DNA of 24,802 nucleotides. It comes from a virus. A program made the translations under genes and the position numbers. Shown here piece after piece: positions 13,841 through 22,394 of the stretch (position 1 is its first letter; every line of letters starts with the position of its first letter). Under the pieces are notes generated by a model that worked only from the letters and a program-made list of their open reading frames with translations, had not been told where the DNA came from and ran no database searches. The DNA is taken from positions 1 to 24,802 of IMG/VR virus record IMGVR_UViG_3300032242_000327; one strand, written 5' to 3'.

Positions 13841-13848
13841 GATAAATA
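13841..13848 (+). promoter_or_regulatory. T4-type late promoter octamer
   Basis: GATAAATA, 12 bp after the stop of the 172-residue gene and 85 bp before the ATG at 13934. The predicted start is near 13854. Confidence 0.75.
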
Positions 13849-13877
13849 TATCATACACTTGCATTCGGCAGGTTTAT

Positions 13878-13912
13878 GCAGTACCCCACTGCGTAGTGAC
13901 TAGAACTCACTA
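13878..13912 (+). promoter_or_regulatory. Tandem stem-loops in a late leader
   Basis: GCAGT/ACTGC (13878-13882 / 13888-13892, loop ACCCC) is followed by TAGTGA/TCACTA (13894-13899 / 13907-13912). The leader then runs TAATTTTACAAAGGAAAAAT to the ATG, nearly the same as before the sheath gene. They are likely mRNA-stabilising, or keep the ribosome site open. Confidence 0.5.
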
Positions 13913-13933
13913 ATTTTACAAAGGAAAAATCAA

Positions 13934-15292
13934 ATGGGACGTCCTCTAAAAATAGCTAAAGCAACGCTTGTTACAGTTACAGCTACTACAGCCGCAACTG
14001 GTGCAGTTACGATTGCTGAAAGCACAACTTCATTAAGCATCATTCGTGGTCAACGTTTTCAAGTAGCCTCTACTGTAGGTGGCTTAACCGGTGGCACACA
14101 ATATTGGGTATTCGATGTTATCGATGCTAACAACTTCACTGTTACTGCTACACAACCTAGCAATCCAAACGCTGTAGCCGCTACATTGACTGATACAACT
14201 AGTCAATCAGTTATCGCTACTATTCAAGGTGTTGACTTTGGTTTCAACAACCCAGTTGGTTCAGCTAACACATATGGTGTTGTAGGTGGTAACACTGGTA
14301 TCTATGGTAAGCAAGTATTATGTAATGTAGCATTTGGTGCTAATGGTACAGGTACTGTATTTGCAAGTACAGGTAGTAACGTTGTTGCTGGTTGGAATAC
14401 TGACTTTGCTAACCTTGCAGCCGGCACACACTTATACGCAGTTTACAATGCAGGCCAAGGCCCAGTGACATTACTAGGCACAACTACTTCTACAGCAGGT
14501 GAGCTTGATGTTGCAGTTGCTAACACACAAGCAACAGGTAATTTCATTCGCACAAGTGGTAATGCACAGACTCTAGTATCAGGTGGTCCAGTTGCATTTA
14601 CATCTAACTTAGGTGGTTTGGTAATCAATACAACATATTGGATTACTAGTATTGCTAATGCAAGTGCATTCACTGTATCATTGACTCCAGGTGGCACAAA
14701 CGTTACATTAACTAACGCAACAGGTACACCTAATGCGGCTCAACAACAAGTTGTATTGACAGCTAACTCAGCAAACAATGCGGCTGGCGTAACTGGTCAA
14801 GGTGATCCGTTCATTCAAGCATTACCAGAAGCAGGTTATATCTTGCGTCAAAAAGGTAAGACAAAGTATTTGGTACAAGGTACTACAACTGGTTTAGTTG
14901 GTGCAGTTTATACAGCTAACGTTGCTAACACAGCATTAACTCCAAACACAATGAGTGTTATTGCTACATATGATGATAACTCTACTAAGTATGTTTCAAG
15001 TGTAAATGATTATCAAACACGTGTGTTCCCAACAACAGTTGCTGATGGTTCATTGACACCTGGTTCATTGTATACAATTTATTATTCAGGTGATACAAAT
15101 TGGACAGCAATTGGTGCAGCAAGTAACATCACTGGTGTTACATTCACTGCAATAAATGCAGGTGGTAGTGGTACAGGTACAGCAGTATTGAATACAGCTA
15201 ACCCTGATGTTATCTCTACATTCAACACAGCATATGCAGCTAATACATACGGTGGACAACCTAACCCAATCGTAATTATTAACAACGCTTAA
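13934..15292 (+). CDS. Major beta-rich virion protein (452 aa)
   Basis: A 452-residue Thr/Ala/Gly/Asn-rich protein built from several phage-type beta modules. One is GLTGGTQYWVFDVIDANNFT, recurring near residues 225-245 as GGLVINTTYWITSIANASAF. Another, near the C-terminus, has the Y-x-I-x-x-x-GDTNWTAIGAASN...G-x-x-FTA layout common in phage structural proteins. There are no signal peptide or enzymatic motifs. Its own promoter, a structured leader and an AAAGGAAAA ribosome site suggest high expression. It could be a fibre, a head-decoration or a tail protein. The exact role is not determined. Confidence 0.65.
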   Translation: MGRPLKIAKATLVTVTATTAATGAVTIAESTTSLSIIRGQRFQVASTVGGLTGGTQYWVFDVIDANNFTVTATQPSNPNAVAATLTDTTSQSVIATIQGVDFGFNNPVGSANTYGVVGGNTGIYGKQVLCNVAFGANGTGTVFASTGSNVVAGWNTDFANLAAGTHLYAVYNAGQGPVTLLGTTTSTAGELDVAVANTQATGNFIRTSGNAQTLVSGGPVAFTSNLGGLVINTTYWITSIANASAFTVSLTPGGTNVTLTNATGTPNAAQQQVVLTANSANNAAGVTGQGDPFIQALPEAGYILRQKGKTKYLVQGTTTGLVGAVYTANVANTALTPNTMSVIATYDDNSTKYVSSVNDYQTRVFPTTVADGSLTPGSLYTIYYSGDTNWTAIGAASNITGVTFTAINAGGSGTGTAVLNTANPDVISTFNTAYAANTYGGQPNPIVIINNA

Positions 15293-19198: not shown

Positions 19199-19206
19199 TA
19201 TTTATC
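19199..19206 (-). promoter_or_regulatory. T4-type late promoter octamer for gp14, predicted leaderless
   Basis: The minus strand reads GATAAATA-AGTAT-ATG. With the T4 late start point six bases after the octamer, the transcript begins at the A of the gp14 ATG (19193). Confidence 0.65.
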
Positions 19207-19222: not shown

Positions 19223-19251
19223 TTGACAGTAAATAAGGGTTGTGCTATAAT
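19223..19251 (+). promoter_or_regulatory. Perfect-consensus sigma70 early promoter
   Basis: TTGACA (19223-19228), 17 bp, TATAAT (19246-19251): both boxes and spacing match the bacterial consensus. The start is expected near 19258, giving a 25-nt leader with TAGGAG before the ATG at 19283. It diverges from the minus-strand gp14 late promoter. Confidence 0.88.
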
Positions 19252-19282: not shown

Positions 19283-20440
19283 ATGGCTACACGTAAAAAG
19301 AATACAGAAGATCACAGTCAGGTTAAAGCACTAAACCCACGTGATGCAGATGTTCAACACTATGGTGACGAACCATTGTTTGTACTACAGCCCGATGAAG
19401 ACAAACGCAGGGTAGCATTAATGCGTAGTTTTACATGGTACAATCGTTTCTATGGCAAAAAAGACGCAAAAGAACTAATGAGTCAATATCTTGACTTAAA
19501 CAATCGTCCCGGTGATGCAAAAGCACTACGTAAGGTTCATGAGAACGAATTTTTATTGACATTGTGCTGGTTGGCACGTATGAAATTACGTGGTCTAGAA
19601 TTAACAGAACATGAAGAAATGACACTTGAAAACGAAATTGTTCGTTTGTTATTAGTTGTCAACAAGCCTGAGGAAATCAAAGCAGAGGTAGATACCTCAA
19701 ATCGTCCCAATATTCAAGACATTTTGCGTGAGAAAGCAAAAGAAGCTGCCGGCGAACTTGAAGGTGTCTTTGACGAATTCATTATAGAGGGCAAGACAAA
19801 GACAAAGACAATGGATCTAGTGTCTAAATTTAATGTGATGCCACAACATATCAGTTTGATTGCTGATATCTGGAAAAAGAAACAAACAGAATTTAATGAC
19901 CTTCAAGAGGGTAGTGACAAACAATTGATTGAGGGTTATAGTCACCTCACTAAAATTCAAGTACGAAACATTGTCAAGTTTATTGAACAAGTACTAACTG
20001 ACTTAAACGCATATATTTCAGTTAAGAAAGCAAGCAAAGCACCTCGACAACGCAAAGCAGTTCCGGTCGAGAAAGTTGTAGCTAAACTCAAGTACTTGAA
20101 AACATTCAAAGATGTAGCCAGTAAGCTTGACTTGACTAGTATCAGTCCTGTAAAATTGCATGGTGCAAGTGAAGCTTGGGTCTATGACACTGCAAAGCGC
20201 AAACTGCATCACTATATTGCAGATGAGTACTCAAAGGCATTTACTGTAAAAGGTAATACACTACTTGGGTTTGATACAACTAAGAGTGAAGTGAAAACCC
20301 TGCGTAAGCCGGGCGAGCAAATTAAAGAAGTCATGGGAAGCAAGCCTGCGGCACGTAAATTCTTTAATGATATTAAAGCAGTTGCAACTACCCCTAACGG
20401 TCGTTTCAACGAAGGTATGATTATTTTGAAAGCATTTTAA
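19283..20440 (+). CDS. Conserved T4-like hypothetical early protein (385 aa)
   Basis: A 385-residue basic protein. Residues 1-150 are helical (FTWYNRFYGKKDAKELMSQY, LCWLARMKLRGLELTEHEE). A charged linker precedes residues 215-385, where the pattern HGASEAWVYDTAKRKLHHY, GNTLLGFDTTKS and NEGMIILK appears. I recall close relatives of this C-terminal part as hypothetical proteins in T4-like marine phages. Lysine-rich stretches suggest nucleic-acid contact, but no catalytic motif is seen. It is the first gene under the strong early promoter and shares a TAATG junction with the MazG-like gene, so it likely acts early. Function unknown. Confidence 0.8.
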   Translation: MATRKKNTEDHSQVKALNPRDADVQHYGDEPLFVLQPDEDKRRVALMRSFTWYNRFYGKKDAKELMSQYLDLNNRPGDAKALRKVHENEFLLTLCWLARMKLRGLELTEHEEMTLENEIVRLLLVVNKPEEIKAEVDTSNRPNIQDILREKAKEAAGELEGVFDEFIIEGKTKTKTMDLVSKFNVMPQHISLIADIWKKKQTEFNDLQEGSDKQLIEGYSHLTKIQVRNIVKFIEQVLTDLNAYISVKKASKAPRQRKAVPVEKVVAKLKYLKTFKDVASKLDLTSISPVKLHGASEAWVYDTAKRKLHHYIADEYSKAFTVKGNTLLGFDTTKSEVKTLRKPGEQIKEVMGSKPAARKFFNDIKAVATTPNGRFNEGMIILKAF

Positions 20441-20864: not shown

Positions 20865-20900
20865 TGTGTTACCTGATAAATACTACTATTAGGTAACACA
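20865..20900 (+). promoter_or_regulatory. Perfect inverted repeat around the gp13 late promoter, hiding the ribosome site
   Basis: TGTGTTACCT (20865-20874) and AGGTAACACA (20891-20900) are perfect 10-bp complements. The 16-nt loop begins with the late octamer and contains the predicted start (about 20888). The right arm holds the ribosome site AGG (20891-20893), 8 nt before the ATG. RNA read through from the early mazG unit can fold; late RNA lacks the left arm. Confidence 0.8.
20875..20882 (+). promoter_or_regulatory. T4-type late promoter octamer for gp13
   Basis: GATAAATA followed by CTACTATT, matching the T4 late pattern including downstream pyrimidine/AT bases. The predicted start is near 20888, 14 nt before the ATG at 20902. 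Confidence 0.8.
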
Positions 20901-20901
20901 T

Positions 20902-21699
20902 ATGACTGTATCAACGACCGCAAGCATTTTATCAACTCCAAGTGGATTAACACTAGATGAGTTAAAACAAGCATTGTTCAAAAATATTCGATACCGTTTA
21001 GGAGATGGTATCATTGATTTAGAACTTGATCCAGAACACTTTGAGGCTGCTTATAACTATACCATCAAGGTATATCGTCAACGAGCACAAAACAGCACCA
21101 GTGAATCATACACTTTAATGACTACCATTAAAGATGTAGACACTTATACCCTACCTAGCAATTTCATCAACGTTCGTTCTATCTTTAGACGCACAATTGG
21201 TATGGAAACAGGTGGTACTGGCACTGCGTTTGATCCGTTCTCAAGTGCTATTCTAAACACATATCTATTGAACTATAACTTTGCTGGTGGTATGGCAACA
21301 TATGACTTCTATGCAGGTTATGTTGAATTAGCCGCACGTATGTTTGGTGGTTATGTAATTTATACATTTGATCCAGTAACCAAAGTTCTTAGAATTGTTC
21401 GTGATCCTAAGGCCTCAGGTGAACGTATTCTTATTTGGGCTGATGTTCAACGTACAGAAGAAGTATTATTACAAGATCCGGGTGCAGGTGTTTGGATTGG
21501 TGATTATATATTAGCCAATCTTAAACTAATCATCGGTGAAGCACGTGAGAAATTTGGAACTATTGCAGGCCCCGGTGGCGGTACAACACTAAATGGTACA
21601 GCTATGAAAGCTGAAGGTAAAGCCGCAATGGAACTATTGCTTGACGAATTGAAACGCTATGTTGATTATTCACAACCATTAACATGGATTCAAGGTTAA
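20902..21699 (+). CDS. 13: Neck protein, T4 gp13-like
   Basis: A 265-residue protein. The opening LDELKQALFKNIRYRLGDG followed by IDLELDPEHFEAAYNYTIKV matches gp13 '[32 protein letters not shown]'. The middle has the GGMATYDFYAGYVEL-type block and a strand pair LRIVRDP / ERILIWADV. The end (GKAAMELLLDELKRYVDYSQ) matches the gp13 C-terminal helix. It joins head and tail together with gp14. Here gp13 and gp14 lie on opposite strands, about 1.7 kb apart, with an early cassette between them. Late expression is controlled by the promoter-in-hairpin at 20865-20900. Confidence 0.85.
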   Translation: MTVSTTASILSTPSGLTLDELKQALFKNIRYRLGDGIIDLELDPEHFEAAYNYTIKVYRQRAQNSTSESYTLMTTIKDVDTYTLPSNFINVRSIFRRTIGMETGGTGTAFDPFSSAILNTYLLNYNFAGGMATYDFYAGYVELAARMFGGYVIYTFDPVTKVLRIVRDPKASGERILIWADVQRTEEVLLQDPGAGVWIGDYILANLKLIIGEAREKFGTIAGPGGGTTLNGTAMKAEGKAAMELLLDELKRYVDYSQPLTWIQG

Positions 21700-21721
21700 C
21701 CTAAAACACTTTTTTTGTCAC

Positions 21722-21752
21722 ACTCCTGTAGTATAATAAGTATTACAGGAGT
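21722..21752 (+). promoter_or_regulatory. Inverted repeat with TATAAT in its loop, hiding the dNMP kinase ribosome site
   Basis: ACTCCTGTA (21722-21730) and TACAGGAGT (21744-21752) are perfect 9-bp complements with a 13-nt loop containing TATAAT (21732-21737). The right arm is the AGGAG ribosome site of the gene at 21762. TTTTTCTTTT follows, so read-through RNA may also terminate here. RNA starting near 21744 would lack the left arm. No convincing -35 box is present at 17 bp. Confidence 0.75.
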
Positions 21753-21761
21753 TTTTCTTTT

Positions 21762-22394
21762 ATGATTATAGGCATCACAGGTTTCATTGGTTCAGGCAAA
21801 GACACAATAGCAGACTATCTCTGCACATTTCATGGATTCAAACGATTAAGTTTTGCAGCCAGTCTTAAAGATGCGGTGTCAAGTGTCTTTGGTTGGAACA
21901 GAGAATATCTAGAAGGTTCTACTAAAGCTAGTAGAGAGTGGAGAGAACAGAAAGATGTGTGGTGGAGTGAACGACTTGGTATGGATATTACCCCTCGTTG
22001 GATACTGCAATACTGGGGCACTGAAGTTTGTCGCAATGGCTTTCACAGTGATATCTGGGTTGCTAGTGTAGAGAACAAACTACGGCAAGCTAGTGACAAC
22101 ATAGTCATCACTGACTGTCGTTTTGCCAATGAAGTTATTGCTATCAAATCAGCAGGTGGTATTACAATGCGAGTTAGTCGAGGTCAGCCACCAGAGTGGT
22201 ATGATGCCGCAGTAGAATATAACAAGGGTGGAAATAACAATATGTACTGGGCCACTAGCAAAGCAAAACTAGATAGAAATCGTGTTCATGCTAGTGAATA
22301 TTCTAGCGTAGGATTAAACTACGACCACTATGTTGACAACAATGGTACGATTGATGAATTACACAAACAGATTCAATCAATAATCAACTTGTAA
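21762..22394 (+). CDS. 1: Deoxynucleoside monophosphate kinase, T4 gene 1-like
   Basis: A 210-residue P-loop kinase: GITGFIGSGKDTIADYL (4-20) holds G7, G10, K13, D14 and T15. The lid/acceptor region WWSERLGMDITPRWILQYWG, the segment ITDCRFANEV and the pattern VSRGQPPEWYD fit phage dNMP kinases. It phosphorylates dNMPs released from host DNA, including in T4 hydroxymethyl-dCMP; the substrates here are unknown and no hydroxymethylase is in the window. Ribosome site AGGAG lies 10 nt upstream, inside the hairpin described above. The 3' end overlaps the minus-strand HNH gene by 18 nt. A terminator lies at 22536-22565. Confidence 0.88.
   Translation: MIIGITGFIGSGKDTIADYLCTFHGFKRLSFAASLKDAVSSVFGWNREYLEGSTKASREWREQKDVWWSERLGMDITPRWILQYWGTEVCRNGFHSDIWVASVENKLRQASDNIVITDCRFANEVIAIKSAGGITMRVSRGQPPEWYDAAVEYNKGGNNNMYWATSKAKLDRNRVHASEYSSVGLNYDHYVDNNGTIDELHKQIQSIINL

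Follow-up and report, generated by a model that had tools for sequence, protein, structure and literature searches.

A sigma70-type promoter in a ribosome-site hairpin upstream of the dNMP kinase gene of T4-like phages: a probable lock on read-through RNA

A promoter embedded in a hairpin directly upstream of the deoxynucleoside monophosphate (dNMP) kinase gene of a T4-like phage fragment probably acts as the kinase's own promoter unit, in which RNA reading through from upstream would be locked and RNA from the inner promoter would be translatable, as comparative analysis of relatives and RNA folding predictions both suggest. Judged from sequence conservation across a large group of uncultured T4-like phages, the conserved entity is a sigma70-type promoter inside a hairpin that sequesters the ribosome site; it is neither a late promoter nor a terminator of gp13.

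Results

Gene order and sampled relatives

The window, which is the whole stretch of DNA analysed (a 24.8-kb IMG/VR virus record), was judged by its genes to be a fragment of a T4-like phage. The local gene order is a MazG-like protein, a gp13-like neck protein, the dNMP kinase, an ORF on the minus strand that weakly matches HNH, and the tail sheath (Table 1). Cultured large phages such as CBB, GAP32, 121Q and Cassandra are annotated with gp13, kinase and sheath in this order, in some cases with an extra gene. At 19223-19251, ahead of the MazG gene and the ORF at 19283, there is a perfect TTGACA-17-TATAAT promoter whose -10 box is preceded by TG; it is likely to define an early transcription unit heading towards gp13.

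Two scans of viral contigs yielded 160 loci (one of them that of the window), and these provided 120 distinct 75-nt regions upstream of the kinase. The sampled loci represent the nearest part of the kinase family (the best 80 per scan), for which at least 598 relatives exist, and the sampled sequences are related, such that the counts given below do not equal independent events.

Table 1. Positions of the kinase promoter-hairpin unit and of neighbouring features in the window
Feature	Position	Strand	Basis
Sister element: late promoter TGATAAATA (20874-20882) in hairpin ending at gp13 start	20865..20900	+	
Neck protein, gp13-like head-tail adaptor	20902..21699	+	phrog_211 1e-23; pre-kinase gene in phage 121Q annotated T4-gp13-like
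Conserved AACCTAAA(C/A) block upstream of -35, about -42 from predicted start	21698..21706	+	position profile
-35 position: decayed to CTTTTT in the window; relatives have TTTACT or TTGACY at the same 17-nt spacing	21709..21714	+	
Left arm (anti-ribosome-site arm), within -35/-10 spacer and -10 box	21722..21734	+	folding; covariation
TATAAT -10 box, inside hairpin	21732..21737	+	conservation; shuffle test
Right arm, contains ribosome site	21740..21752	+	folding
Predicted transcription start, 5-8 nt past -10 box	21742..21745	+	inferred from -10 position
AGGAG Shine-Dalgarno sequence of kinase	21747..21751	+	sequence; unpaired probabilities
T-rich tract after stem; terminator-like in window, missing in half of relatives	21752..21761	+	
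Deoxynucleoside monophosphate kinase (T4 gp1-like)	21762..22394	+	phrog_139 2e-49; PF21448

Hairpin in the window

The segment 21722-21730 (ACTCCTGTA) is perfectly complementary to 21744-21752 (TACAGGAGT), which gives arms of 9 bp upstream of the kinase ATG at 21762. With inner and G-U pairs the stem grows to 13 bp and closes a loop of 5 nt (-16.7 kcal/mol for the hairpin alone); RNA from 21700-21770 is predicted to fold into this single hairpin (-17.3 kcal/mol, z -4.1, with none of 200 dinucleotide shuffles as good). The anatomy described in the first-pass annotation, namely a 9-bp inverted repeat around TATAAT with AGGAG as its right arm and a T-run behind it, was thus confirmed in its coordinates and fold. 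Perfect 9-bp arms with loops of 3-20 nt occur in the window in 13 registers (7 places), compared with 3.0 registers in shuffles. Only 11 of the 2,641 ORF ATG starts in two large relatives have a helix of 7 or more pairs at the ribosome site, and such an element is therefore rare at any given start. The Rfam search of 21700-21770 gave no match at gathering score.

Association of the hairpin with the kinase gene

The hairpin is borne by 68-84 distinct sequences. The first-pass annotation had suggested that it might also stop late gp13 RNA, and the possibility that the hairpin and its T tract are mainly an intrinsic terminator was evaluated by comparing loci in which gp13 and the kinase are separated. 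The window itself fits the terminator consensus well, its stem being the longest among the terminator-like sites scanned (13 pairs followed by TTTTCTTTT), but that stem contains only 4 G-C pairs. A stable stem with a U tract is likewise present in half of the hairpin-bearing relatives; the U-rich tail was found in 34 of 68 such sequences, the others carrying, for example, TTACCAT or TTTCCAT. No tie of the hairpin to the upstream transcription unit was seen, as the hairpin follows the kinase: of 35 distinct loci in which at least one gene separates the kinase from gp13, 22 have the helix at the kinase and only 3 have a comparable hairpin behind gp13, and gp13 in these loci is followed directly by the next gene, with no terminator in between. 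Because the hairpin stays with the kinase and half of its bearers lack the tail, termination of gp13 RNA was rejected as the conserved role and is unlikely to be the main function of the element, though the hairpin may terminate transcription in the lineage of the window itself. In one locus (L051) the promoter-hairpin unit is located approximately 1 kb before the kinase, ahead of another ORF.

Covariation of the hairpin arms and accessibility of the ribosome site

Covariation of the arms was examined in 48 aligned sequences over an 8-pair stem. In this set 97.7% of cells are paired, a value that is no test of pairing because the sequences were picked for bearing the hairpin; the test is provided by covariation and by controls in which the partner was slid. 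Changes on both sides were found at 4 pairs, and double changes occurred in 12 cells, compared with 2.5 +/- 1.3 in shuffles (0/500) and 0-4 with the partner slid. Among 86 distinct arm pairs, which were anchored on the -10 box and the ribosome site and include hairpin-less sequences and a few mis-anchored ones, 83% of cells pair, versus 35-50% when slid. One inner pair swaps A-T for C-G (54 and 15 sequences, respectively) and is paired in 86% versus 58%, the shuffled maximum being 71%; on the kinase tree this pair requires a minimum of 10 state changes. In the tree contrasts that were examined both sides of the pair change together and almost never oppositely, with only 2-3 of these contrasts on strongly supported branches, which is too few for significance.

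Folding predictions were compared for RNA that reads through from upstream and RNA that starts at the inner promoter. In the window, the predicted unpaired probability of AGGAG is 0.00 in read-through RNA; in RNA spanning 21745-21830 its first four bases have values of 0.66-0.86 and its last base 0.17. When the self-started RNA is extended to 22000, pairing within the coding sequence lowers the values to 0.17-0.40. In a set of 84 distinct relatives, the median predicted unpaired probability of the ribosome site rises from 0.00 in read-through RNA to 0.55 in self-started RNA; 65 of these relatives are below 0.2 in the former, 48 are above 0.5 in the latter, and 33 satisfy both. Since the site is predicted to be closed in read-through RNA and mostly open in short self-started RNA, the kinase is probably made solely from self-started RNA. 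The stop codon of gp13 at 21699 lies 22 nt before the hairpin, and a ribosome finishing gp13 should therefore leave the hairpin unmelted. Together with the conserved promoter described below, the covarying arms and the folding lend support to the earlier proposal that the ribosome site is hidden in read-through RNA and freed in RNA started inside the hairpin.

The hairpin is missing from about a quarter of relatives, as might be expected if the promoter were real and the hairpin tuned only RNA stability or the choice of start site, not the translation of read-through RNA. This alternative is improbable: the conserved arm is the exact complement of the ribosome site, and three relatives that lack the ribosome site (L055, L066 and L067) also lack the hairpin. 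In these three the -10 box is located 16 nt before the ATG; their kinase RNA would be near-leaderless, which would provide another route to translating self-started RNA only.

Promoter elements inside and upstream of the hairpin

When the distinct kinase upstream regions were anchored on their best -10 match, 118 out of 120 had a -10 box with at least 4 of 6 matches including A2 and T6, the most frequent forms being TATAAT (63), TATACT (20) and TACAAT (19). Exactly 17 nt upstream, the base frequencies were T92 T95 T83 A66 C55 T68 (%), which corresponds to a consensus of TTTACT; this hexamer was exact in 38 of the 120 regions, and TTGACA, TTGACC or TTGACT was found in 11. The position profile of the upstream regions clearly shows both hexamers, and a promoter score of at least 9/12 was reached by 84 of the 120, compared with 3% of shuffles. 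The most distant clade (approximately 63-65% kinase identity) keeps TTGACC-17-TATAAT or TATACT while the hairpin is absent, which indicates that the promoter stands alone. The relatives thus have a -10 and a -35 element at the 16-18 nt spacing of sigma70-type promoters, with a degenerate -35 in the window, and it is from this conservation, including that in the far clade, that we conclude that the kinase promoter is of sigma70 type.

The first-pass annotation had noted the lack of a -35 box and left open whether the loop is a weak sigma70 -10 box or a variant of a late promoter. The lack of a -35 box holds for the window, in which the copy at that position is poor, but not for the relatives. 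The -35 element became a T run in the window and in a near relative (L002), and it is kept as TTTACT in a locus with a kinase fragment 95% identical (L112). The sigma70 alternative is accordingly favoured, the -35 question being answered by the hexamer found at 17 nt in relatives.

The late-type variant, in which a phage late sigma factor (gp55-like) would read the loop and the kinase would be a late gene, was compared with the sister element at gp13. The kinase gene does sit among late genes, and TATAATAAGTA resembles a late-like box, GATAAATAAGTA, at 19205 on the minus strand. T4 late promoters have no -35 element, however, whereas a -35 is kept at 17 nt here, and the -10 variants include TATACT and TACAAT. 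Furthermore, the late motif [ACT]TAAATA does not overlie the -10 box in any of 118 kinase upstream regions, whereas it is found near the start in 83 out of 83 distinct gp13 upstream regions, in 58 of which it is enclosed by a perfect hairpin of 7 bp or more. Late-promoter hairpins similar to that of the window are also located at gp13 in the cultured phages CBB, GAP32 and XbC2. On these counts the late-promoter reading of the kinase loop was rejected as very improbable.

Another late-type TGATAAATA box in the window is followed immediately by an Rfam freshwater-2 RNA (13842-13936; RF02980, 71.4 bits), which precedes an ORF at 13934 and occurs also in locus L183. A late RNA may carry this motif as its 5' leader.

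A conserved block, AACCTAAAC (window 21698-21706), was detected upstream of the kinase -35 element, and its position near -42 makes an activator site possible. A pattern search of three large relatives with the full layout including AACCTAAAC matched only the kinase, and the block was therefore rejected as a promoter element shared across these phages.

The placement of a perfect dyad across the -10 box is classic for an operator, but binding of a dimeric repressor to this palindrome, with RNA pairing as an incidental result, is very improbable. The arms show compensatory changes and accept G-U pairs, which occur at two positions of the stem in 10 of 48 sequences each, and the ribosome site invariably forms one of the arms. 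The loop varies in length while pairing is constant, and the distance from the -10 box to the ribosome site ranges over 13-19 nt, which fits an RNA loop, unlike a protein operator.

Other genes and cultured relatives

Genome-wide use of the same switch was examined in three large relatives of 364, 260 and 230 kb (the 260-kb record minus its last 148 bases). Only isolated candidates were found, at a membrane protein gene (L169) and at queD (L180), and genome-wide use was rejected. The first candidate (L169, 12500-12563) consists of TTGACA-16-TATAAT in a ACTCCAGT/ACTGGAGT ribosome-site hairpin upstream of the gene for a 52-aa membrane-like protein, and is possibly a second case at another gene. 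Upstream of the QueD-like gene, a conserved hairpin, CCTATG-CTATAATNN-CATAGGAG, is located at the ribosome site (80 loci, L205-L284) and adjoins a GCGG..CCGC stem that recalls the preQ1 riboswitch; the Rfam search at this hairpin gave no match at gathering scores. The queD element was not counted as a second instance, as its hairpin is retained in two loci that lost the -10 box (L263 and L267) and the preQ1-like stem lies alongside.

The kinase hairpin is absent in the cultured phages CBB, 121Q, RaK2, GAP32, XbC2, Kaldavass and Cassandra and in a Vibrio phage. Agrobacterium phage Atu_ph07 (L292) has a different long hairpin (TTGGTATTCTCTGTAT.. / ..ATATAGAGAATACCGA) at approximately 1450-1490, with TATAGT inside, directly before the kinase start. 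The kinase of Phosso is preceded by an AT-rich hairpin without a clear promoter.

Discussion

In the proposed switch, promoter and start codon are so close together that the left arm and loop of the hairpin would be encoded by the spacer and the -10 box. RNA started upstream, either late gp13 RNA or early RNA from the promoter at 19223, would contain both arms and fold, hiding AGGAG; this helix is predicted by folding and backed by covariation. RNA begun inside the hairpin, at about 21742-21745, would be without the left arm and its ribosome site would be open, as the position and conservation of the inner promoter suggest. The kinase would then be made only upon firing of its own promoter, probably before the takeover by late transcription. 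That the promoter fires and that the hairpin blocks ribosomes is what we infer from these features.

It is conceivable, at somewhat short of an even chance, that two adjoining genes of opposite timing are each locked to their own promoter class, gp13 to a late and the kinase to a sigma70-type promoter, and translated solely from RNA begun there, in a mirror image of T4, where it is late genes that are locked, and that the kinase promoter, with its weak -35 element and AACCTAAAC near -42, may also be turned on by a phage activator.

If the proposed switch is correct, the promoter-in-hairpin lock of T4 late genes would be a general device that includes host-type promoters, an early enzyme gene could sit in a late cluster without the enzyme turning late, and a compact 31-bp arrangement would render a gene deaf to read-through transcription. 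As the element is kept in dozens of environmental phage lineages, natural compensatory variants are at hand.

In the transposons IS10 and IS50, transcripts begun at the transposon's own sigma70 promoter lack the hairpin at the transposase ribosome site. The transposase mRNA of IS200 has a hairpin that occludes the ribosome site and also terminates impinging transcripts (PMC3196728). The kinase element resembles these systems in that a ribosome-site hairpin would guard against read-through RNA, although they concern transposon genes with no phage timing.

Further parallels are in T4-like phages. In T4, the genes e, soc, 49, I-TevI and segB, as well as mobE of Aeh1, have ribosome-site hairpins with inner late promoters; the site is sequestered in RNA started upstream, and the promoter, which lies in the sequence encoding the left arm or loop, gives rise to RNA that is translatable (PMC3014915, PMC2988022). 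The kinase element is alike in that its hairpin would hide the ribosome site and RNA from its inner promoter would be without the left arm. The T4 promoters are late (TATAAATA) and serve late genes within early transcripts, whereas the kinase element, of the -35/-10 type and without the late motif (0/118), serves a nucleotide-metabolism gene within late genes. The kinase element may thus work like the T4 switch while standing outside its late-promoter class, with a translation block predicted by folding. The same contrast is present within the window, where the gp13 and kinase hairpins share the promoter-in-hairpin design and differ in that the former contains a late motif, TGATAAATA, and the latter -35/-10 elements. 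Its promoter class, and hence probably its timing, sets the kinase element apart from gp13 and T4. Our search of the open-licence literature found no sigma70-type phage case of a promoter in such a hairpin. In conclusion, the logic of the switch was already known with T4 late promoters, and what is new here is a sigma70-type promoter located in a ribosome-site hairpin.
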